From Gammaproteobacteria bacterium HGW-Gammaproteobacteria-2 (GTDB lineage Bacteria > Pseudomonadota > Gammaproteobacteria > Xanthomonadales > Xanthomonadaceae): DNA of 64,000 bases. Under the pieces are notes generated by a model that saw only the letters and a list, made by a program, of their open reading frames with translations, was not told the DNA's origin and did not search any database. The translations under genes and the position numbers were made by a program. The DNA lies in contig PGZE01000003.1 of the NCBI GenBank assembly GCA_002840015.1, positions 36,460-100,459 on the forward strand. Reading direction: 5' to 3'. Positions 4,601-14,674 of this stretch are shown here, piece after piece (within the stretch, counting starts at the first letter, position 1; each line of letters begins with the position of its first letter).

Positions 4601-6289
4601 TCAATCGAACAACCGCAAGGGCTGCGGTTTAGCCAGTTCGGCGAGGATCCGTGAGTCGCGTCCGTAGATGTCGCGTTTGAATCCGAGCCGGCCATCGCTG
4701 TGGATGTCCACACTCCAGTACATCAACAATACCGTGACTGGCCGATGCAGGCTCACGTTGCGGGTCTGGTTGCTGGCAATTACGACATCGATGGCAGCCC
4801 GGTTCCATTGTGCCGGGTCGTCAAGCAGGCGCTCGACCAGTTCCAGTGGCCGCTCCACCCGAATGCAACCGGAGCTGAAGGCGCGTTGTTCGAGATCGAA
4901 CAGTTCGGTATGCGGAGTGTCGTGCAGATACACGCTGTAGGGGTTATCGAAACGGATCGCAACCCGCCCCAATGAATTGCCTGCTCCCGCATCCTGGCGC
5001 AAGGTCAGGCCACTGGGATTACTCCAGTCGATCTGCTCGGCGCGCAATTCCTTGCCGTTGTGGTCGAGCACACGCAAGCGATTGGCAGCCAGATAACCGG
5101 GGTTTTTGCGGACCTTGGGCAGGATGTCGTTGCGCAGAATCGTGGGGGGTACCGTCCACGTCGGGTTGAAGGTGATCCGGTTGATCTGCGAGCGGAAGCT
5201 TGGCGTTTTGCGATAGGGTTTGCCTACCTGCACGCGTGTGCTCCATTGCGGCTGGCCATGCTGAAAATAAGTTGCCTTGTAGCCGGCGATGTCGACCAGT
5301 AAAAACTCGGCGCTGGTTTCATGCAACAACCAGCGAGCACGCTCCAGATTGGCGCGCACTTGATCGATACGCATCGCTACGGTTATGTTGAGTGCTGCCA
5401 GTGTGCTCTTGCCCAGCACCCCGTCGGGGGCCAGGTATTGCTTGCGCTGGAATCGGCGCAAAGCATCTTCCAGCACCTGGTCAAAGTGCGTTGAATCCGC
5501 AGTGGCTTCCATCTCCGGGTCGCCATATCCGCTCAGGCGCAGACGCTCGCGCAACGCCGGTATTCTTGGGTCGTCGTCACCCGTTTTCAGTGTTGGGCCG
5601 TCGGCGATTTGCGGCCAGCCTCCTGTACTTTGCACTTTGCGCAGCCGGCGCAGGCCTTCACGCAATTGCTCATATAGTGGATACATCGGGCGGGCACGGT
5701 TGAACAAGGCCGCAATTTCGCCTGCATCAATCGCTGCACTCATTGCGCTTAATGCTGAGCGCACCTCGATACTGCGCGCTTGAAAGTTCCAATCGCGTTC
5801 AAGCACACGGGGGTCGACCTTGCCATTGAGCAAATGCGACAAGGCGGTGAGCAAGCTGCGTGTTGCCAGCAACTCAGTCGTCAGTGCAACATCGGCAGGC
5901 AGGGTTGGCTGTGCCCACGTGGCACGCAGCGTATCCAATGCGTAATCGCCAGACGACAAGCCATCGCTTTCGATGTCGTCAAGTGCGGCCAGCAACGCAG
6001 CCTGCTGCGCGGGTTCGGCCCATGCGGGCCTGAATTGGCGCAGTTGATAAAATATGGCAAGCAGTTGATCCAACTGCGAATGCTCTGCGGCCTGCGCTGC
6101 GGATTGCGCAAGTTGTTCGCGCAATTGCAGGGCAAGCCTTGGATTTTGCGCAGGCTCCAGCGGTGTGGCCGCTGCCTGTACGCCAACGATGGCAGCAATT
6201 AGCAGCAACGCGATGTTGGTGAGCCACCCACGCAACCGTTTTTTAACCTGCACGACTGTAACTTGCGCGTTGGTGTCGGTTGTCGGCAT
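4601..6289 (-). CDS. L,D-transpeptidase of the LdtD/YcbB type, membrane-anchored
   Basis: Predicted periplasmic enzyme that forms 3-3 cross-links in peptidoglycan. Of 562 residues, a short cytoplasmic tail and one membrane segment (about residues 18-37) come first. A scaffold region and a peptidoglycan-binding repeat (around RRFQRKQYLAPDGVLG) follow. The YkuD catalytic domain has HDTPHTELFD and SSGCIRV, with the nucleophile near Cys475. Size and domain order match LdtD. The ATG at 6289 was chosen because a GGAG lies upstream and the hydrophobic anchor follows closely; another ATG 14 codons earlier is possible. It is divergent from a second L,D-transpeptidase-type gene across about 30 bp. Confidence 0.9.
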   Translation of the reverse strand: MPTTDTNAQVTVVQVKKRLRGWLTNIALLLIAAIVGVQAAATPLEPAQNPRLALQLREQLAQSAAQAAEHSQLDQLLAIFYQLRQFRPAWAEPAQQAALLAALDDIESDGLSSGDYALDTLRATWAQPTLPADVALTTELLATRSLLTALSHLLNGKVDPRVLERDWNFQARSIEVRSALSAMSAAIDAGEIAALFNRARPMYPLYEQLREGLRRLRKVQSTGGWPQIADGPTLKTGDDDPRIPALRERLRLSGYGDPEMEATADSTHFDQVLEDALRRFQRKQYLAPDGVLGKSTLAALNITVAMRIDQVRANLERARWLLHETSAEFLLVDIAGYKATYFQHGQPQWSTRVQVGKPYRKTPSFRSQINRITFNPTWTVPPTILRNDILPKVRKNPGYLAANRLRVLDHNGKELRAEQIDWSNPSGLTLRQDAGAGNSLGRVAIRFDNPYSVYLHDTPHTELFDLEQRAFSSGCIRVERPLELVERLLDDPAQWNRAAIDVVIASNQTRNVSLHRPVTVLLMYWSVDIHSDGRLGFKRDIYGRDSRILAELAKPQPLRLFD

Positions 6290-6319
6290 TATCTGTTCGC
6301 TCCGTATTGTCTGGGGATC

Positions 6320-7018
6320 ATGCCATTGCATCCGCCGTGCCGATCACTCTTGTTGCTGACGATTTTCGCCTGCGCCAGTGGCAGGGCTTCGCCGCCGGCC
6401 GACCCACTGCTTTCCGCTACGCCGATAGCTGCCAGGGCTGCGGTAACGCTGGCATTGCAAGCGATGCGCTGCGCTGTGAACAGCGGTGTGCCAGCCCCGA
6501 ATCGACTGGCCGTAATTGATTATTCAAAACCCTCCACAGAGAAACGCTTGTGGGTATTTGATCTTGCCGCGAACTCTCTTCTGTATGCAGAACGGGTTGC
6601 GCACGGTCGCAATTCGGGTGAAAACCTTGCTGCAACGTTTTCCAATGATACGGGCAGCTATGCGTCAAGCCTGGGTTTGTTTCGCACGCGTGATGTTTAC
6701 TTTGGCCGCAACGGGTATTCGCTGCGGATGCAGGGGCTTGAGCCGGGCTTCAATGACAACGCCATGAGTCGCGCCATCGTGATCCACGGCGCCGACTACG
6801 TCAGCGAGGCATTCGTGCGCAAAGTCGGACGGATCGGTCGCAGCCTGGGTTGCCCGGCGGTACGCAGAAAAGTGGCCCATGCGCTGATAGACACGATTCA
6901 GGATGGACAGTTCGTATTTTCCTACTATCCCGACCCAACATGGTTGGCGCATTCACGTTTCGTCAATTGTGGTGGCAGCGGGGTTGCACAGAACGGCGGC
7001 TTTTCGGCCGCTCCCTGA
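6320..7018 (+). CDS. Murein L,D-transpeptidase catalytic domain family protein (YkuD_2-like)
   Basis: Exported protein of 232 residues with a signal peptide (about residues 1-24). The C-terminal domain has His156 in IVIHGADYV and Cys178 in RSLGCPAVRR, the His and Cys of the YkuD_2 family (often called murein L,D-transpeptidase catalytic domain proteins). Whether these are true transpeptidases is poorly established. The ATG at 6320 was preferred because GGGG lies just upstream and the signal peptide begins there. It is head-to-head with the LdtD-type gene, so the two may share a regulatory region. A strong terminator follows. Confidence 0.82.
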   Translation: MPLHPPCRSLLLLTIFACASGRASPPADPLLSATPIAARAAVTLALQAMRCAVNSGVPAPNRLAVIDYSKPSTEKRLWVFDLAANSLLYAERVAHGRNSGENLAATFSNDTGSYASSLGLFRTRDVYFGRNGYSLRMQGLEPGFNDNAMSRAIVIHGADYVSEAFVRKVGRIGRSLGCPAVRRKVAHALIDTIQDGQFVFSYYPDPTWLAHSRFVNCGGSGVAQNGGFSAAP

Positions 7019-7021
7019 CAA

Positions 7022-7048
7022 AAAGGCCGGGGTGCCAGCCCGGCCTTT
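7022..7048. terminator. Bidirectional intrinsic terminator
   Basis: A 10-bp perfect stem (AAAGGCCGGG at 7022-7031 paired with CCCGGCCTTT at 7039-7048) with a 7-base loop. It has A-rich and T-rich flanks and sits between convergent genes. Confidence 0.85.
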
Positions 7049-7070
7049 CCTCGTGATTCGGCAGCTGCGC

Positions 7071-7526
7071 TCAGCGCAGCGGCACGATCTGGTTGTTGGT
7101 TACTCGCACGTAGTCACCGGGGGCCACGTTGGCGAGATTGCGCTGGTTGATGACAATGCGGCGACCGTCATCCATGCGTAGAAAAACGTCATACGTTGGC
7201 GCAGATTTGACGTTCTTTTCGATCTGATGGCCCGCTACTGCGCCGCCCACAGCGCCGACCACCGTTGCAGCCTTGCGGCCGTCGCCTTTGCCGACCTGAT
7301 TACCCAACACGCCGCCGACGATACCGCCCAATACCGCGCCGCCACCACTGGCCGAGCTGTTGCCGTAAACGGTTTCAATGCGTTCAATTACACCGCAGTC
7401 GTAACAACGCACATTCTGGCTTGGGCCGCTGGGGGGCGGGCCATAACCATAGCCACGGCCACCGCCGGTGGCGCAGGCCGCAAGGCCGATACAAAGGGTG
7501 GAAACAAACAGGTTTCGCAGGTTCAT
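7071..7526 (-). CDS. Glycine-zipper 2TM outer-membrane lipoprotein (SlyB/PcP-like)
   Basis: Lipoprotein of 151 residues with a lipobox LAAC at about residues 15-18 after a short signal peptide. The centre is a glycine zipper (GGIVGGVLGNQVG, then GAVGGAVAGHQIE), the Rick_17kDa/2TM anchor that inserts in the outer membrane. The C-terminal part is a small beta domain found in SlyB-type proteins. Its role is probably envelope integrity. The ATG at 7526 was chosen because the signal peptide starts there; an upstream in-frame extension has no signal features. It stands alone between convergent terminators and a cytochrome-like gene. Confidence 0.85.
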   Translation of the reverse strand: MNLRNLFVSTLCIGLAACATGGGRGYGYGPPPSGPSQNVRCYDCGVIERIETVYGNSSASGGGAVLGGIVGGVLGNQVGKGDGRKAATVVGAVGGAVAGHQIEKNVKSAPTYDVFLRMDDGRRIVINQRNLANVAPGDYVRVTNNQIVPLR

Positions 7527-7627
7527 GGTGTTACTCCGCAACGGTGGACTGTGTTCATGCTGAAGTGTAGTGGCTGAACGCACACCGACCGCGTTCGTTG
7601 AATGGGTGTGCTGGCGTACCGACCGGC

Positions 7628-8020
7628 TCAACGATAATCGCGATGGCAGGCGTCACAGGCGTCATCGACCCGTGTTGCTACAAGGGTCAGCTCAGCGCAA
7701 CTGGTAGCCATCGTGTGCAGGGCTGCCGACGTTGCTGCTTGCAGATCGGCAGCGTAACGTAAAAAGGTGGCGTCCTTTGATGTCGCAAACACCGTATCGA
7801 TGTCCGCGCCGAGAGAGTTGAGTCGGGCGAAATGATGGCGCACGGTTTTGGTCGAGCAACTCGGCGCCGCCAACTCGGCATTGACACTGCGCTGGTGGTG
7901 ATCGATCAGCACCATCAGGCTGCGGGGCAGGACATGGGCCTGGCGCAGCGCATTGAGCGCAGAACTGGTGCCGAGAACACCAATCATCAATCCGATCAGC
8001 AGGGTGATGGCAAAGCGCAT
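7628..8020 (-). CDS. Cytochrome c'-like exported haem protein
   Basis: Small exported protein of 130 residues with an N-terminal hydrophobic signal (residues 1-22). A single haem c motif, Cys122-Asp-Ala-Cys125-His126, lies at the extreme C-terminus, with predicted helices elsewhere. That layout (four-helix bundle with C-terminal CxxCH) is that of the cytochrome c' family, which binds gases such as NO or transfers electrons in the periplasm. Overall similarity could not be measured, so the family name is an inference from architecture. No neighbouring respiratory gene explains its partner. Confidence 0.65.
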   Translation of the reverse strand: MRFAITLLIGLMIGVLGTSSALNALRQAHVLPRSLMVLIDHHQRSVNAELAAPSCSTKTVRHHFARLNSLGADIDTVFATSKDATFLRYAADLQAATSAALHTMATSCAELTLVATRVDDACDACHRDYR

Positions 8021-8084
8021 GGTGTCTCCGGGACTGGAATTCCGACGCGCATTGTCGCCGATCTTTAGCGGTTAAAATGTACGG

Positions 8085-8891
8085 ATGAACAGCATTGCGC
8101 CGAATATTGATGTATTGCAGCAGCGATTTGCCGGCATTGATCGCCTCTATGGTGCGGGTGCTGCTGCTGGTTTTTCTGGCTGTCATGTCTGCGTGATCGG
8201 TCTTGGCGGTGTGGGTTCCTGGGCGGTGGAAGCGCTGGCGCGCAGTGCAATCGGCGCGTTGACCCTGATCGATGCCGACGATGTTTGCGTGAGTAATACC
8301 AGCCGACAGATACAGGCACTGGACGGCAATTTTGGCCGCGCCAAGGGTGAGGTGCTGGCGGAGCGCTGTCGTGCCATCAACCCGGCAATAACGTGCCAGG
8401 TGATACCCGCATTCCTGACGCCATCCAATCTCGGGGAGTTGCTTGATCGCGGCTATGACCTGGTACTGGATGCCTGTGACAGCTTTCGCAGCAAGGTCGA
8501 AACCATTGCCTGGTGCCGGCGCCGCAAGTTGCCGTTGGTGGTGGTGGGTTCCGCTGGCGGGCGCATCGATGCCACCCAGGTGCGGGTGCGTGATCTGAGC
8601 CGAACCGAGCACGACGCGATGTTGTCGCTGATCCGCAAGAAGCTGCGCGGCGAGTTCAATTTTCCACGCAATGCGCAGCGCTATTTCGGGGTGTCGGCGG
8701 TGTATTCGTTGGAAAACGTGCGTTATCCGCAGGCCGATGGCACGGTGTGTGGCATCCGGCCGGCGGCCAGCACCGATGCGGGGTTTACCCTCGATTGTAG
8801 TGCCGGCCTTGGCGCCGCAACCCATGTCACCGGAGCGTTTGCATTTGCCGCGGTGGGGCGGGCACTGGAGCTGCTGCGCCGTGCGCGGTGA
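8085..8891 (+). CDS. tcdA: tRNA threonylcarbamoyladenosine dehydratase
   Basis: ThiF/E1-like ATP-dependent enzyme that cyclises t6A to ct6A at position 37 of ANN-decoding tRNAs. The protein has 268 residues. The Rossmann nucleotide site GLGGVGSWAVEALARS is at about residues 44-59, followed by the LIDADDVCVSNTSRQ block in which E1-like enzymes bind ATP. It lacks the rhodanese domain and CxxC pairs of the MoeB-like protein at 33376, which separates the two ThiF-family members here. The ATG at 8085 follows a promoter-like AT-rich stretch. Confidence 0.9.
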   Translation: MNSIAPNIDVLQQRFAGIDRLYGAGAAAGFSGCHVCVIGLGGVGSWAVEALARSAIGALTLIDADDVCVSNTSRQIQALDGNFGRAKGEVLAERCRAINPAITCQVIPAFLTPSNLGELLDRGYDLVLDACDSFRSKVETIAWCRRRKLPLVVVGSAGGRIDATQVRVRDLSRTEHDAMLSLIRKKLRGEFNFPRNAQRYFGVSAVYSLENVRYPQADGTVCGIRPAASTDAGFTLDCSAGLGAATHVTGAFAFAAVGRALELLRRAR

Positions 8892-8992
8892 TGGATTTGG
8901 GTGTGCAGCGTTACTGATGACGTTACGGTCATTGGTCACAATCCGCTGTTCGCGCAACAGTGCGGACACCGATAACTTGTAAGGATGTGACA

Positions 8993-10387
8993 ATGAACGA
9001 GCAGGGCCGGGGGCGCGACGACGACAGGTCGGCTGTGGATGCGATATCCGCGTCGATCAAGGCTGGCAACGTCGCGGCAGCGATCAGCCAGTGCCGGCAG
9101 CGGCTTGCGGTTGAGCCAAAAAACGCCGCGATCTGGGGGTTGCTGGGTTCGGCACTGGCGGCTAGCGGCGACATCAACGAAGCCGGTAAAAGCCTGGCGC
9201 GTGCGATTGCCAGCGATCCGGCCGAGCCGGCTTACCATGTGCAGATGGGTGAGCTGTACGCGCGCCTGGATCGCGCCAGCGATGCCGCTGCGTGTTTTGA
9301 GCGCGCGCTGACCCTCGTGCCCGAGCATCTGCCGGCCCTGCATGGCCGTGCCAATGCCCTGTGGGCGCAAGGCAACCTGTTGGCGGCGCGGCAGACCTAC
9401 CAGCAGATCCTCGCGTTACGCGGTGATGATGCCTTTGCTGAGCGCAACCTGCGGCTGATCAATGGCCGTCTGGTCGAGCGTTGGCATTTTCCGATGGTCA
9501 GTGATGGGCCGCGCAATGCCCACTACGAGCAGGCGCTGTGCGCGGCGATCACGGCCGATTCGGTGGTGCTGGATATCGGTGCCGGCACTGGCTTGTTGTC
9601 GATGATGGCAGCGCGCGCCGGTGCGCGCCACGTGATTGCCTGCGAGGGTAACCCGGCGATGGCTGAACTCGCTCGCGAAATCATTGCCCACAATGGCCTT
9701 GCCGACAAAATCACCGTGCTTGCCAAATCATCGTTCCAGATCGAGCCGCAAGCCGATTTCCCTGCCGGCCTGCGCCCCAATCTGATCGTGGCCGAGATTT
9801 TCGACGCCACCGTGATCGGCGAAGGAGCGTTGGCGAGTTTTGCCCATGCCCGCAGTCATTTGGCGCTGGAGGGCGCAAGGATCATCCCGGCACGGGCGCG
9901 GCTGCATGGTGTGCTGATCGAATCGGACATGCTCTGGCGCGAGGGTGCCGCCGATCATGCCAGTGGTTTCGATCTGCGCATGCTCAACCAGTACCGACCG
10001 GATTGTGTCGGTGTGGAGGGGCACGGGTTTCAAGGCGTCGCGTTATCCGACGACTTCGCCATCTTCGATTTTGATTTCACCCGCGATACCGCAACCAGCC
10101 CCACGCACAACACGCTGGAAATCGAGATCACCCGTGCCGGCGTGTGCCATGGTGTTGCCTACTGGATGCGTTTGCAGCTTGATGACGAGCGGGACCTGGA
10201 TAACCGTCCCGACCTGGGCGATGGCGTATCCGATGCGTATTGTGCGCACTGGCACCAGATGGTGCGGCTGCTGGTGCCCGCGATACCCGTGCAACCCGGT
10301 ATGCGCATTCGCATCCAGGCACAGCACAACCTGCATTCAGTTGCATTGAGCGTGTTCGATCCAGTGACCGGGTTGCCCGGCGGTTGA
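8993..10387 (+). CDS. TPR-containing protein arginine methyltransferase-like protein (PRMT7-like)
   Basis: A 464-residue two-part protein. Residues about 25-160 are tetratricopeptide repeats. From about 175 on is a class I SAM methyltransferase with a full set of PRMT hallmarks. Motif I is VVLDIGAGTG (191-200). The ribose-binding acid is Glu218 in ACEGN. The double-E loop has Glu268 in AEIFD and Glu277 in GEGAL. The C-terminal AHWHQ (His419, Trp420) sits where PRMTs have the THW loop. The AEIFD...IGEGAL segment closely recalls eukaryotic PRMT7. The start ATG at 8993 follows AAGGAT. An oxygenase gene follows after 49 bp on the same strand. Substrate and activity are unknown; protein arginine methylation is inferred. 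Confidence 0.8.
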   Translation: MNEQGRGRDDDRSAVDAISASIKAGNVAAAISQCRQRLAVEPKNAAIWGLLGSALAASGDINEAGKSLARAIASDPAEPAYHVQMGELYARLDRASDAAACFERALTLVPEHLPALHGRANALWAQGNLLAARQTYQQILALRGDDAFAERNLRLINGRLVERWHFPMVSDGPRNAHYEQALCAAITADSVVLDIGAGTGLLSMMAARAGARHVIACEGNPAMAELAREIIAHNGLADKITVLAKSSFQIEPQADFPAGLRPNLIVAEIFDATVIGEGALASFAHARSHLALEGARIIPARARLHGVLIESDMLWREGAADHASGFDLRMLNQYRPDCVGVEGHGFQGVALSDDFAIFDFDFTRDTATSPTHNTLEIEITRAGVCHGVAYWMRLQLDDERDLDNRPDLGDGVSDAYCAHWHQMVRLLVPAIPVQPGMRIRIQAQHNLHSVALSVFDPVTGLPGG

Positions 10388-10436
10388 TGCAGATGCCGGT
10401 GTTGCACTTTTCAGGTGCGCAAGGTCTACTTTCGCC

Positions 10437-11096
10437 ATGAACGAGAACGAACGATACCGCAGTGCCGGTGCTGTGCTGTGCGAACGGATGGTGCCGCCAG
10501 AAGTGGCCGCGGCGATGGCTTACCAGATCAGCGTGCAGGTGCGAAAGAGTGGTGGCCAATGCCTAGCGCCGCCGCTGATCACCAGCAAGCCGTGCTATGA
10601 GATTTACTGTTACCAGTGGCCGGTGCTGCTTACGTTTCTGTGGGCAATGACGCCGAAGATCGAAGCCGTTGTCGGCCGCCCCCTGCTGCCGAGTTACAGT
10701 TATTTTCGTACGTATCAACACGGCGATGTTTGCCGCATTCATGCTGACCGCCCGGCCTGTGAGCATTCGGTTTCGTTGACCCTGGCTTACTCGGATGACA
10801 AGCCGTGGGCGTTGGCAGTTGCCAACGATCCGGCGCCGCTGGAGCAGCGCGGCACCATCCGTGGTGATGAGGATTTTGGCGGCAGCGGATACAGCGAGTT
10901 TGCGATGGCAGCCGGTGATGGCGTGGTCTATCGCGGCACCGACTACCTGCACGGGCGGTTGATACCCAACCCCAATCGCTGGTCGGCGCATTTGTTTTTG
11001 CATTGGGTTGATCGTGAAGGCCCCTATCGCGAGCAGGCTTTCGATGGCCGATCCGTCGTTGGAAATACCGATTTCGTGTTTCCTGCGGCGGTCTGA
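10437..11096 (+). CDS. 2OG-Fe(II) oxygenase
   Basis: Predicted non-haem iron, 2-oxoglutarate-dependent oxygenase of 219 residues. The iron facial triad is His102-x-Asp104 (RIHADRP) and His172 (YLHGR). Arg181-x-Ser183 in NPNRWSA is the usual 2-oxoglutarate carboxylate-binding pair at the right spacing. No signal peptide is seen, so it should be cytoplasmic. It starts 49 bp after the PRMT-like gene in the same direction, probably in one transcript, which suggests the two act on a shared protein or metabolite. The stop codon lies inside the stem of the downstream hairpin. The substrate is unknown. Confidence 0.8.
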   Translation: MNENERYRSAGAVLCERMVPPEVAAAMAYQISVQVRKSGGQCLAPPLITSKPCYEIYCYQWPVLLTFLWAMTPKIEAVVGRPLLPSYSYFRTYQHGDVCRIHADRPACEHSVSLTLAYSDDKPWALAVANDPAPLEQRGTIRGDEDFGGSGYSEFAMAAGDGVVYRGTDYLHGRLIPNPNRWSAHLFLHWVDREGPYREQAFDGRSVVGNTDFVFPAAV

Positions 11097-11121
11097 CAGG
11101 CGGCGGTTGGCCGCCTGTCAG
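11093..11121. terminator. Convergent-gene hairpin, probable terminator
   Basis: A 12-bp perfect stem (11093-11104 with 11110-11121) and 5-base loop between two convergent genes, starting inside the oxygenase stop codon. There is no T-tract, so termination efficiency is uncertain. Confidence 0.55.
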
Positions 11122-11132
11122 CCACGCGCAAA

Positions 11133-13544
11133 TCAGAACTCGCTGGCCAGACGTGCAAACAATGCAGCGCCGTTGAGGCCAAACTGCACACTGTCATACT
11201 TGAAACCGTTGTCGGTTTCGTCGGCGTTCTGGGCACTCGGGAACTTGTCGAAGATGTTGGCTGCGCCGAGGGTGAACTTGGTCTTGCCACCATTGAAGGC
11301 ATAGGTGAGGCTGGCATCGGCCGACAAGCGCGCATCGTACTTGAGGTTCGGCACCGGCGGTCCGGAGAACGTGCCGAGGGTCTGTGAGCCAAAGTAAATC
11401 AGCTTGAACAGCCCGTTCCATGAACCATGGGTGTAATCGAACGCCAGCGTGCCCTTGCTGCGTGGCGCGCCGTTTTCGATAAACAGTTTTTCGCGGTTGT
11501 CGAGCAGGGCATCTTCGCGGCCGGCGAGTGAGGCCGGGGTGTTGACCCGGCGGACATCGGTCTTGTTGTAGTTGAATCCGAGCAGGGTAACCAACTTGCC
11601 GCCGGCCATGGGCATGTCGTGGGCAGCGGTGACATCAACGCCACGGGTTTTGGTATCGACCGAGTTGACGAAGAACTGCGCCTCGCCGACACCCAGTTGG
11701 TCCAGAATTGCGCCGATGCTCGGGTCGCTGTCGTCGAAACGGCCGCTTAGCACGATGCGGTCATCGATGTTGATCCAGTAGCCGTCAACCGTCAGCGTGA
11801 GGTTGTCCAGCGGCTCCCAGGTGAAGCCAAGGGTGAAGTTGTCGGAAGTTTCTTCCTTCAGCTTGGGAATGCCGGCGGCATTGGCCACGGCACCGCCATT
11901 GGGCGCCAGCACCACGTCGGTGGGTACACCGCCGATGAAGTCGGTGAAGGTGGAAGAGAAAAAGCGCTGTTGCAGCGACGGCGCACGGAAGCCGGTGCTG
12001 ACCGAGCCACGAAGGCGCAGGGTGTCGGTGGTGCGATAGGCCCACGCCAGCTTGCCGTTGAGGGTGGTGCCAAAATCGCTGTAGTCCTCGTAGCGGCCGG
12101 CAATATCGACCATCAGGCGATCGGTGACGCTGGCTTCCAGATCAACGTACGCGGCCCAGCTGTCGCGGCTGGAGTTGGTTTCGTCACCCGGCTGAAAACC
12201 GGGGAATCCCTGACTGCCGGCATTGCCGCCACCGGCGCCGTCGGCATCGATGAAGGAACCCGCCTCGCCGGCAAAAATCTTGTAGCGTTCGTCGCGATAC
12301 TCACCACCGAAGGCCACGTTCAGACCCTGAAACACGCCATCGTAGTATCGGCTGATGTCGAGGTTGGTGGTTTGCTGGCGGAACGAAAAACCGCCGGCAT
12401 CAAAGCGGGTAGGGCTGATGCCGGCGCCGCCAGCGAGCAGGTTGGCATTGGCGATCGAGGCATTGAGCGTATTGGAGATGTTGTACAGCAGCTCGTTGTA
12501 GCCGTAGGTGGTGCTCAAATCAACATGCCAGTCCGCAAAATCACCGCGAGCGCCAACCGTGGCGTAACGGTCCTCGAGATCGCCATTGATGAACGGCACA
12601 AAGCCGTCGGGGAACATCGCGGCGGAATTGCGTGACGGGATATCGTCGGAACCAATGCCGCCGCGCGCAAACGCCGCCGATGATGCATCGCGATCCTGGT
12701 AGGTGCCGGTGAAATACGCTTCGACATTATCGGTGATGCCGAACGTGCCGTTGCCGGCCACCGTGGTGTTGTCCACGCTGGAATCGCCGATGGTGCGCGG
12801 ATTGTCCTTGCCCGAGCGGTCGGAACGATTGCGACTCAGGTACTCGGCGGTGATGCCAAGCGTGCCGCGGTCACCGAGTTCCACGCCGCAGTAAGCGGTG
12901 GTGAGGTCGTTTTCACCATCGCCGCGCGAGTACTGGCCATAGGCAAGCACGCCTTCGCAACCGAGACGCTGTTTCAGGGTGATGTTCATGACGCCGGCGA
13001 TGGCATCGGAGCCGTACTGCGCCGCCGCGCCATCGCGCAGCACTTCCACCTGTTCGATTGCCAGCACCGGGATCGTGTTCAGGTCGGTGCCGGTGGCGCC
13101 GCGATTGCGTGCGCCGAACAGGTTGACCAGCGACACGTTGTGCCGGCGTTTGCCATTGACCAGCACCAGGGTCTGGTCGGCACTGAGGCCGCGCAAGGCT
13201 GCCGAGTCGATCAGGTCGGCACCATCAGCGCCAGTCTGCCGCGTCGAGTTGAACGATGGGGCGATGAATTGCAGCGACTGGGCAAGATCGAACTGCGCAC
13301 CCTGGGTGGCCGCTTTTTCCATCGGGATGATATCGACCGGCACCAGGGTCTCGGTGGCCGAGGTGCCCTGTCGACGCGAGCCGAGCACCATGACCTTGTC
13401 GAGCGATTTGGCTTCGGCCTGATCCGTTGTGGTATCTGCATCGCCGCCCTCCTGCGCCCAGACTGGCGCAGCCACACTCAAACCCATAAGTACAAACAAC
13501 GGCAAGGCATTGCCCACGGCCGTAAACAGCAGCGATTTGCGCAT
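11133..13544 (-). CDS. TonB-dependent outer-membrane receptor
   Basis: Outer-membrane beta-barrel receptor of 803 residues, with a signal peptide (about 1-31, ending near VWAQ). The plug domain has TonB-box-like DKVMVLGSRR, then ALRGLSADQTLVLVNGKRRH and IEQVEVLRDGAAAQYGSDAI, all typical of the TonB-dependent receptor plug. The barrel ends near LFARLASEF with a terminal Phe. AGGGGAA lies just upstream of the ATG at 13544. The ligand cannot be told; there is no Fur-type box that I could recognise and no transport operon beside it. It is convergent with the PRMT-like/oxygenase pair, so any functional link is only positional. Confidence 0.9.
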   Translation of the reverse strand: MRKSLLFTAVGNALPLFVLMGLSVAAPVWAQEGGDADTTTDQAEAKSLDKVMVLGSRRQGTSATETLVPVDIIPMEKAATQGAQFDLAQSLQFIAPSFNSTRQTGADGADLIDSAALRGLSADQTLVLVNGKRRHNVSLVNLFGARNRGATGTDLNTIPVLAIEQVEVLRDGAAAQYGSDAIAGVMNITLKQRLGCEGVLAYGQYSRGDGENDLTTAYCGVELGDRGTLGITAEYLSRNRSDRSGKDNPRTIGDSSVDNTTVAGNGTFGITDNVEAYFTGTYQDRDASSAAFARGGIGSDDIPSRNSAAMFPDGFVPFINGDLEDRYATVGARGDFADWHVDLSTTYGYNELLYNISNTLNASIANANLLAGGAGISPTRFDAGGFSFRQQTTNLDISRYYDGVFQGLNVAFGGEYRDERYKIFAGEAGSFIDADGAGGGNAGSQGFPGFQPGDETNSSRDSWAAYVDLEASVTDRLMVDIAGRYEDYSDFGTTLNGKLAWAYRTTDTLRLRGSVSTGFRAPSLQQRFFSSTFTDFIGGVPTDVVLAPNGGAVANAAGIPKLKEETSDNFTLGFTWEPLDNLTLTVDGYWINIDDRIVLSGRFDDSDPSIGAILDQLGVGEAQFFVNSVDTKTRGVDVTAAHDMPMAGGKLVTLLGFNYNKTDVRRVNTPASLAGREDALLDNREKLFIENGAPRSKGTLAFDYTHGSWNGLFKLIYFGSQTLGTFSGPPVPNLKYDARLSADASLTYAFNGGKTKFTLGAANIFDKFPSAQNADETDNGFKYDSVQFGLNGAALFARLASEF

Positions 13545-13801
13545 GTTGATTCCCCTAATCCCGGTAACGGCCGTCCCCAATCGCAACCCGCCACGGCCCA
13601 AGCCGGCTGCGTTGCCAGTGCAATGCACCGGCGCTCACCTGCAATGTAGCGCGACGCGGGGCGCGCGGGAAGATGCTGCCTGCTGTGCTTGTGCTCGTGG
13701 AAACCAGCTTTGCCGGCGACAGCCTTGCGAAAAGCGTCGTGTACGCGGCGTGCTGCTACCGGTGTGTACACTGCGCGTTCGGCTAATCGTATGGACTGGT
13801 A

Positions 13802-14674
13802 ATGAATCTGCAGCAGTGGCGGCGCGAAGGGGATACGTTCGAGTGGCAGGGCCAACGCATTTTTTATCGTGACCAGGGGCAGGGCGAGGTGCTGCTGTGC
13901 TTGCACGGCTTTCCCACCGCGTCGTGGGACTGGCATCGGCTGTGGCCGTCGCTTACCGCAACGCGGCGGGTGATCGCGCTGGATTTTCTCGGCTATGGGT
14001 TTTCCAGCAAACCGCTGGATCATGTCTACAGTGCAGCGGAGCAGGCCGACATCGTGCTGGCGCTGATGCAGGCTTTGGGCATCGGGCAGGCGCATGTGCT
14101 GGCCCACGATTTTGGCGACAGCGTGGCGCAGGAGCTGCTGGCGCGGGTGGCCGAGAGCGGTGTAGGCCTGTCGCTGCAGTTGCTGTCAGTGTGCTACCTC
14201 AATGGCGGCCTGTTCATGGAAGCGGCACGGCCGCGCCTGATCCAGCGCTTGTTGCTAGGCCCGCTCGGGCCGTGGTTGTCGCGGCGGCTGAGTTACCCGC
14301 GGTTTGCGCGCAGTTTTGCGGCAATTTTCGGTCGGCAAACACAGCCCAGCAAGACCGAACTTGGCGATTTCTGGCGCTTGATTACCCACGAAGACGGCCA
14401 TCATCTGGCCCATGCCCTGATCCAGTACATCCCCGAGCGTCACCGGCAGCGCGCGCGCTGGGTGGCGGCGATGCAAAACAGCAAGGTGCCGCAACGTTTG
14501 ATCATCGGCATGGCCGATCCGGTCTCGGGCTGGCGTATCGCCAAGCGTTACCGTGAATTGTTGCCAGCGGCCGATGTAGTCGAACTGGCAGAGATCGGCC
14601 ACTACCCGCAGGTGGAAGCGGCGGATGCCGTGCTGGCGGCGCATGTCGCGTTCATCGCACGCATTGCGCCATGA
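13802..14674 (+). CDS. Alpha/beta hydrolase with aspartate nucleophile (haloalkane dehalogenase / epoxide hydrolase-like)
   Basis: Alpha/beta-hydrolase of 290 residues. The oxyanion HGF motif is at residues 35-37. The nucleophile elbow AHDFGDS places Asp103, not Ser, at the nucleophile position, as in haloalkane dehalogenases and epoxide hydrolases. The acid is probably in GMADPVSG and the catalytic His in EIGHYPQVE near the C-terminus. Substrate unknown; no membrane segment or signal peptide is apparent. It is preceded by 257 bp without a gene, shared with the divergent TonB receptor, which must hold both promoters, and it converges with the cation exchanger. Confidence 0.82.
   Translation: MNLQQWRREGDTFEWQGQRIFYRDQGQGEVLLCLHGFPTASWDWHRLWPSLTATRRVIALDFLGYGFSSKPLDHVYSAAEQADIVLALMQALGIGQAHVLAHDFGDSVAQELLARVAESGVGLSLQLLSVCYLNGGLFMEAARPRLIQRLLLGPLGPWLSRRLSYPRFARSFAAIFGRQTQPSKTELGDFWRLITHEDGHHLAHALIQYIPERHRQRARWVAAMQNSKVPQRLIIGMADPVSGWRIAKRYRELLPAADVVELAEIGHYPQVEAADAVLAAHVAFIARIAP

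Follow-up and report, generated by a model that had tools for sequence, protein, structure and literature searches.

Protein arginine methyltransferases (PRMTs) of the PRMT7 and PRMT9 kinds are among the closest described relatives of the protein considered here. PRMT7, found in animals and trypanosomes, is not known to have a tetratricopeptide repeat (TPR) domain; the trypanosome enzyme has a single catalytic core, whereas animal PRMT7 has two. PRMT9 of animals has N-terminal TPRs (three repeats) followed by the PRMT core, and it methylates the splicing factor SF3B2 (PMC10984984). PRMTs are usually presented as enzymes that act on eukaryotic proteins (PMC11871472). In bacteria, SznE/StzE of streptozotocin biosynthesis is described as an arginine-guanidino methyltransferase that acts with SznF, which accepts Nω-methyl-L-arginine (PMC11705231), and SznE/StzE used as a query uncovered a methylarginine antibiotic cluster (PMC12637814, a preprint). 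Bacterial enzymes with a PRMT7/9-like fold have thus been reported to act on free arginine. Here we examine a 64,000-nucleotide stretch of DNA ("the window") from Gammaproteobacteria bacterium HGW-Gammaproteobacteria-2 (Xanthomonadaceae; contig PGZE01000003.1, positions 36,460 to 100,459), which encodes a 464-residue TPR-containing methyltransferase at 8993..10387 and, 49 bp downstream on the same strand, a small protein of the 2-oxoglutarate (2OG)-Fe(II) oxygenase type at 10437..11096. The methyltransferase is a bacterial PRMT7/9-type enzyme with the layout of PRMT9 but with one core, and this identification is well supported.

Motifs and fold of the methyltransferase

The methyltransferase gene lies on the forward strand (8993..10387 with its stop codon, coding 8993-10384), as seen from its open reading frame (ORF), Pfam and PDB sequence matches, and a structural model. 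Its start is the ATG at 8993, which is directly preceded by TAAGGA, and a GTG at 8960 is a possible alternative. All six motifs in the list of PMC12925635 (motif I, post-I, II, double-E, III, and THW) are found in the protein. Motif I lies at about residues 190-201 and includes VLDIGAGTG (192-200), post-I lies at about 213-219 and includes HVIACE (213-218), and motif II is NLIVAE (263-268). The double-E loop, AEIFDATVIGEGALA (residues 267-281, positions 9791..9835), contains E268 and E277 and has AE in place of SE. Motif III lies at about residues 290-300 and includes LALEGARIIP (290-299). The THW-type loop, at about residues 416-424, includes AHWHQ (418-422, positions 10244..10258), with AHW in place of THW. 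The initial annotation, made from the sequence alone, had already pointed to the two glutamates and to AHWHQ, and our alignments agree. The protein also has the entry helix HF-M--D--RN--Y of the PRMT7/9 type. Eighteen positions are invariant in 32 aligned family members (H165, M168, D171, R174, G196, G198, G200, E218, E268, W420, and eight more).

The best match among PDB sequences is mouse PRMT7 (4c4a, E = 6.8e-53), followed by bovine PRMT9 (8rbk, E = 8.1e-44), for which a single alignment runs from the TPRs into the core. In a profile search, PRMT7, PRMT9, and Trypanosoma brucei PRMT7 ranked above the type I PRMTs (among the best 60 of 116 matches). Pfam places generic methyltransferase models in the core and TPRs in the N-terminal third. 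An AlphaFold model, which was built on an alignment of 32 sequences (the window protein and fetched loci), has a mean pLDDT of 90.3 and a pTM of 0.82. Its top Foldseek match is bovine PRMT9 (E = 1.9e-28, 439 columns). By VIA-align, human PRMT9 (Z = 31.6, rmsd 2.0, 286 residues aligned) and T. brucei PRMT7 are tied at the top, bovine PRMT9 aligns over both TPRs and core (Z = 30.2, rmsd 5.1, 408 residues aligned), mouse PRMT7 scores 29.6, and type I PRMTs score 28-29 among the matches listed. So, the predicted model has the PRMT fold (a SAM-binding Rossmann part and a beta-barrel part), with Z of 28-32 to solved PRMTs among the matches listed. Models for PrmA, CpaM, and other enzymes that use S-adenosylmethionine (SAM) match the Rossmann part only and with weak scores, so we reject a family other than the PRMTs.

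The N-terminal TPRs are seen in Pfam TPR families (TPR_19, E = 2.4e-13), in the model, and in the alignment to PRMT9. In the model they form a solenoid of nine helices (residues 6-160, positions 9008..9472), with block means of pLDDT above 90 for most of its length, and the region aligns with bovine PRMT9 from residue 39 onward. Sequence and structural alignments place the PRMT core at residues 158-464 (positions 9464..10384). It is the only one in the 464 residues of the protein, in contrast to the two tandem cores of animal PRMT7 and PRMT9.

The initial annotation called the protein a PRMT7-like enzyme with TPRs. The TPRs and the PRMT identity are borne out, and the core is indeed of the PRMT7/9 type, but the layout is that of PRMT9. 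The window protein shares with PRMT9 the order of TPRs and core, the six motifs, and an alanine at position 272 in the double-E loop, and PRMT9 is its best structural match over TPRs and core together. It differs from PRMT9, besides being bacterial, in that it has a single core where PRMT9 has two. Its nine TPR helices amount to about four and a half repeats, against three in PRMT9, and its THW loop reads HWHQ rather than CWEQ. With PRMT7 it shares the core sequence and the M--D--RN--Y entry helix, and also FD and IGEGAL of the double-E loop (mouse) and the single core (trypanosomes).

Both the methyltransferase and the oxygenase show fewer amino-acid than silent changes within the genus. For the methyltransferase, the difference at fourfold sites is 0.34-0.37 and the amino-acid difference is 0.16-0.17 in the two more distant genus genomes. 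In the comparison to one genus genome (G003), the corresponding values are 0.37 and 0.16 for the methyltransferase and 0.41 and 0.06 for the oxygenase. (These figures are a crude count without a codon model.)

Relatives across bacteria and the SznF-linked branch

Among 100 genomes, methyltransferase orthologues are present in four (the source genome included), all of this genus, and the other three proteins are 83-94% identical to the window protein. The next match beyond the genus (E = 1.6e-35) is from another genus of the same family. Some match at 0.001 is found in 98 of the 100 genomes, and among the matches listed most are to the TPRs or to the Rossmann part. In a wider set of 398 genomes from the phylum, matches of 1e-10 or better occur in 24, and in 13 of them (again with the source genome) the match is stronger than 1e-31. 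Two short patterns, run against a collection of 84,980 species, matched 177 stretches, and we kept the best 80 loci. These loci, many of them from metagenome-assembled genomes, place the family in at least six phyla: Pseudomonadota, Actinomycetota, Acidobacteriota, Cyanobacteriota, Myxococcota, and Thermodesulfobacteriota. The three loci of the window's genus among them all come from metagenome-assembled genomes, and a long-TPR member is present in the cultured Pseudanabaena, with different genes around it. With relatives this widespread and SznE already described, the initial annotation's remark that PRMTs are little known in bacteria has to be qualified. Among 72,556 plasmid records, 15 match, and four of these bear the name 50S ribosomal protein L11 methyltransferase, which looks like a misannotation. 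Viral contigs yielded no relative of the methyltransferase or the oxygenase in a search with two short patterns for each, which detects close relatives only. Our literature search met no description of a bacterial TPR-PRMT family; it left many subscription papers uncovered, and we make no claim of absence.

With a bacterial family that has PRMT motifs and, in many members, PRMT9-like TPRs, two questions become testable: whether protein arginines in bacteria are methylated by PRMT-type enzymes, and what the origin of PRMT7 and PRMT9 is. A recent transfer of the window gene from a eukaryote is unsupported: beyond the genus, its nearest sequences come from bacteria (about 41-42% identity), the solved PRMT7 and PRMT9 structures have 25-32% identity in structural alignments, and the gene (63.1% GC) and the window (60.0% GC) are alike in composition.

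Clustering of the genes around the 80 loci identified one neighbour that recurs across phyla, a diiron-plus-cupin protein. In Streptomyces benahoarensis (locus L159), this neighbour scores 834 bits against the PDB entry for SznF, so the adjoining methyltransferase is a probable SznE. It belongs to the same bacterial PRMT7/9-like family as the window protein, has one core, and is 40.7% identical to the window protein over 270 core residues. The SznF-linked loci come from Streptomyces, Actinomadura and allied genera, Acidobacteria, and one myxobacterium. A direct search showed no SznF homologue in the 64-kb window or in 13 additional loci, four of them duplicates of named ones. Nor was one found in five genomes (four of the genus and G027, from another genus), in a search that had no positive control. 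The window protein thus differs from SznE/StzE in having no SznF-type neighbour, as well as in its long TPR domain and in the alignment columns described below. With its SznE branch, the family lends itself to studying, by comparison of its members, what makes such an enzyme act on a protein or on an amino acid. In four actinobacterial loci (L119, L126, L134, and L135), two SznF homologues each flank the PRMT-type methyltransferase, one on either side.

We built two trees from rows thinned at 72% identity. The first, rougher tree has 54 rows and contains long branches. The more careful tree has 46 rows, after removal of eight with long branches (L066, L084, L069, L067, L065, L086, L047, and the second mouse PRMT7 domain). 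In the careful tree, the bacterial family together with eukaryotic PRMT7 and PRMT9 splits from four type I-like rows (support 98/94). The SznF-linked clade (93/79) contains two rows without an SznF link. The genus of the window (100/100, on a long stem) falls outside the SznF-linked clade, in a group (89/86) that includes Asaia and further proteobacterial rows. Its nearest rows beyond the genus are L100 and L095.

We also looked for alignment columns that mark the SznF-linked proteins, with the rule that a residue be the same in at least 9 of the 10 SznF-linked rows and occur in under 30% of the 73 other bacterial rows. (The columns were picked after seeing the alignment and are not a published criterion. 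The counts use 91 of 107 rows. Left out are rows that are long or type I-like, namely L066, L084, L069, L067, L065, L064, L087, L049, L047, Hmt1, PRMT6, and the second domain of PRMT7, as well as L075-L078, duplicates of named loci.) Eight columns satisfy this rule, and at seven of them (265, 272, 279, 283, 291, 339, and 342) the window genus has another residue than the SznF-linked rows. For example, C272, F339, and R342 of the SznF-linked rows are A, V, and E in the window genus.

In Magnetococcales, TPR-PRMT genes (L098:4225-6123, L099:1456-3636 and 5856-8738) adjoin genes for very long TPR proteins. At two of three Magnetococcales loci (L098 and L099), a neighbour combines TPRs with a glycosyltransferase-41 match, of the O-GlcNAc-transferase kind, which suggests TPR-guided protein modification. 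At the third locus (L097), only the upstream neighbour was scanned, with no such match.

One bacterial relative has a two-core layout that resembles animal PRMT7 and PRMT9. It is an 892-residue protein (L047:6791-9469, in G015, from the same family as the window) with a strong PRMT-like domain at residues 531-812 and a weaker, degenerate one before it. By eye, D replaces the first double-E glutamate in the strong domain.

The adjoining oxygenase and the substrate question

The oxygenase gene (10437..11096, forward strand) encodes 219 residues and was identified from its ORF, an alignment, and a model. It has no Pfam or NCBIfam family at E = 0.1 and no PDB sequence match better than 0.43. The initial annotation listed the metal ligands H102, D104, and H172 and also R181. 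The HxD...H triad is invariant in 14 aligned relatives, but R181 is not kept in all of them. The arginine that binds 2OG is expected about nine residues after the distal histidine, which is where R181 lies (+9), and the invariant arginine is R174 (+2). The predicted model has the 2OG-oxygenase fold (pLDDT 81.6), with structural matches up to Z = 16.8 (rmsd 4.1, 187 residues aligned) and many others close behind: amino-acid hydroxylases, halogenases, antibiotic enzymes, and a prolyl hydroxylase. As many of these matches are nearly tied, the function of the oxygenase is unreadable from its fold. The small 2OG-Fe(II) oxygenases (SnoN/SnoK, BesD/HalB, and the Pseudomonas prolyl hydroxylase) have the fold and the triad in common with the window oxygenase, but identity is about 9-17% among the matches listed, and no family can be assigned.

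The initial annotation also proposed that the two enzymes make or remove a modification on one substrate, and this is the weakest part of its case. The 49-bp gap that it reported is exact, and co-transcription of the pair is plausible from it. The oxygenase adjoins the methyltransferase on one strand in three of the four genus genomes; in the fourth (G001), the methyltransferase is followed directly by the TonB receptor gene, with no oxygenase at that place. Conversely, G027 has an oxygenase of 62% identity, with glycosidase and phosphoribosyltransferase genes on its upstream side, but no methyltransferase of the PRMT7/9 kind was matched there. Oxygenase orthologues (62% identity or more) occur in 4 of the 100 genomes (G000, which is the source genome, G002, G003, and G027), and 4 of 369 genomes of the class, the source included, have a profile match at 1e-10. 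Narrow and broad oxygenase profiles, applied to flanks of up to 7 kb, found no oxygenase near any of 77 methyltransferase loci outside the genus; the profiles found it at 2 of the 80 loci, both of this genus. The expected co-occurrence therefore largely fails. We consider the pair to be a genus-level arrangement, in which joint action is possible but not favoured.

Our leading reading of the methyltransferase, which we hold with slightly better than even confidence, is protein arginine methylation. The enzyme would be a PRMT7/9-type arginine N-methyltransferase whose TPRs bind a small number of specific protein partners, perhaps just one. Its core would move a methyl group from SAM to a guanidino nitrogen of the partner's arginine, and the product would most likely be mono- or symmetric dimethylarginine, as for PRMT7 and PRMT9. 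Single-core PRMTs generally work as homodimers, and this enzyme probably does too. The oxygenase would be a separate small 2OG-Fe(II) enzyme, perhaps co-transcribed with the methyltransferase within the genus but not tied to it as a constant partner. We prefer protein methylation because the window genus differs at seven of the eight SznF-marking columns and because of the long TPR domain; the columns, the TPR helices, and the Magnetococcales neighbours together favour a protein substrate. Nevertheless, as SznE is within the family, a protein substrate cannot be assumed, and several observations count against it. Ten of the 80 family loci have an SznF-type gene no more than about 1.5 kb away. 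Seven of the ten SznF-linked proteins have a TPR match at E = 0.01 or better (one of them above the Pfam cut-off; L127, L150, and L159 have none), so having TPRs does not by itself prove that an enzyme acts on proteins. At the eighth marking column the window genus has P406, as do the SznF-linked rows and also the eukaryotic rows. BLAST identity to SznF-linked proteins (40.8% for L101 and L102, 40.7% for L159) is close to that of the best long-TPR row (41.8%), and in the rougher tree the nearest rows beyond the genus by path are the SznF-linked L159 and L101. The approximately unbiased test rejects neither a clade of the window genus with the SznF-linked rows (p = 0.188) nor one of the window genus with the eukaryotic rows (p = 0.28; the tree backbone is unsettled), so the tree does not decide on which side the window protein falls. 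Furthermore, Pfam PRMT_C scores 21.9 bits, below its cut-off of 27. Finally, the second double-E glutamate is a proline in 22 of the 73 other bacterial relatives (for example, L078), so the chemistry of the family is not uniform and some members may not work as PRMTs; the relatives with proline may be inactive or have altered activity. Both glutamates are present in the window protein.

The main competing explanation is an SznE-like role: the enzyme would methylate free L-arginine or a small guanidine, and the adjoining oxygenase would oxidise the methylarginine. The two genes would then parallel SznE and SznF, but with a different oxygenase, and the product could be an exported metabolite. 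The structural matches of the oxygenase include enzymes whose substrates are free amino acids: BesD/HalB/HalD, the proline hydroxylase H11, and GriE. The guanidino methylation described for SznE/StzE (PMC11705231) and the SznF-type neighbours of the family also speak for this route, as do an iron-containing redox enzyme and a Rieske protein that are annotated beside family members on plasmids of Pantoea dispersa and Methylobacterium indicum. However, no other biosynthetic genes were recognised adjoining the methyltransferase, the SznF-linked proteins have at most weak TPR matches where the window protein has nine helices, and one genus genome is missing the oxygenase. The marking columns, the position outside the SznF-linked clade in the careful tree, and the failure to find SznF in the five genomes (with the caveat given above) all make an SznE orthologue in particular less likely. 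Overall, we think that a small-molecule substrate is possible but rather unlikely. If the substrate is a protein, then the oxygenase might hydroxylate or demethylate the arginine that the PRMT has methylated. JmjC oxygenases can demethylate methylarginine (PMC10952680), the genes are close and on one strand, the triad is intact, and both genes have more silent than amino-acid changes by our crude count. But the genus genome without the oxygenase retains both the methyltransferase and the receptor, G027 has the oxygenase without such a methyltransferase, the only two of the 80 loci where the oxygenase was found belong to this genus, and its fold, with many tied matches, is shared by small 2OG oxygenases in general. 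This makes such editing improbable. We give about an even chance to the oxygenase having its own job, such as hydroxylating a translation factor or a metabolite, and being a neighbour by chance, which is compatible with either account of the methyltransferase. Its distribution is unlike that of the methyltransferase, and its first Foldseek match is a Pseudomonas prolyl hydroxylase solved with EF-Tu (with many others close), although the adjacency in three of the four genus genomes is not what this would lead one to expect. Also improbable is the full combination of a protein methyltransferase of PRMT9 layout, which would select a bacterial protein through its TPRs, with a dedicated oxygenase in this genus that oxidises the methylated arginine or the partner, drawn from a bacterial stock that is perhaps ancestral to eukaryotic PRMT7 and PRMT9.

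Neighbouring genes and plasmid clusters

Upstream of the methyltransferase by 101 bp, on the same strand, is a ThiF-family gene (8085..8891) that is kept in the genus and is probably TcdA. Downstream, the oxygenase gene converges with a gene for a TonB-dependent receptor (11133..13628, reverse strand). Both assignments rest on Pfam and on comparison within the genus. The receptor is present in all four genus genomes, including the one without the oxygenase, and is 92-97% identical across the genus, which puts its conservation above that of most neighbours. Between the convergent genes, and overlapping the oxygenase stop codon, is a computed hairpin (11093..11121, not assigned to a strand), with a fold energy of −26.7 kcal/mol for 11091-11140. 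It is a possible shared terminator of the two genes, but it was not in the output of a terminator scan. A promoter scan found no sigma-70-like site in 8000-14000, which is uninformative. Near PRMT loci outside the genus, tblastn at 1e-5 gave no match to eight genes of the window, among them the ThiF gene, the TonB receptor, and the oxygenase. As spurious long ORFs from GC-rich genomes enter the ORF-based neighbour lists, the absence of other conserved partners is weak evidence.

The two plasmid loci mentioned above, in Pantoea dispersa (L173:5030-11477) and Methylobacterium indicum (L177:5926-9983), are compact clusters. Each contains the iron-containing redox enzyme, the Rieske protein, a PRMT-type methyltransferase (annotated as an L11 methyltransferase), and an ATP-grasp protein; the Pantoea cluster additionally contains an MFS transporter and an ada gene. 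By their annotation, they are candidate clusters for guanidine or N-nitroso natural products.

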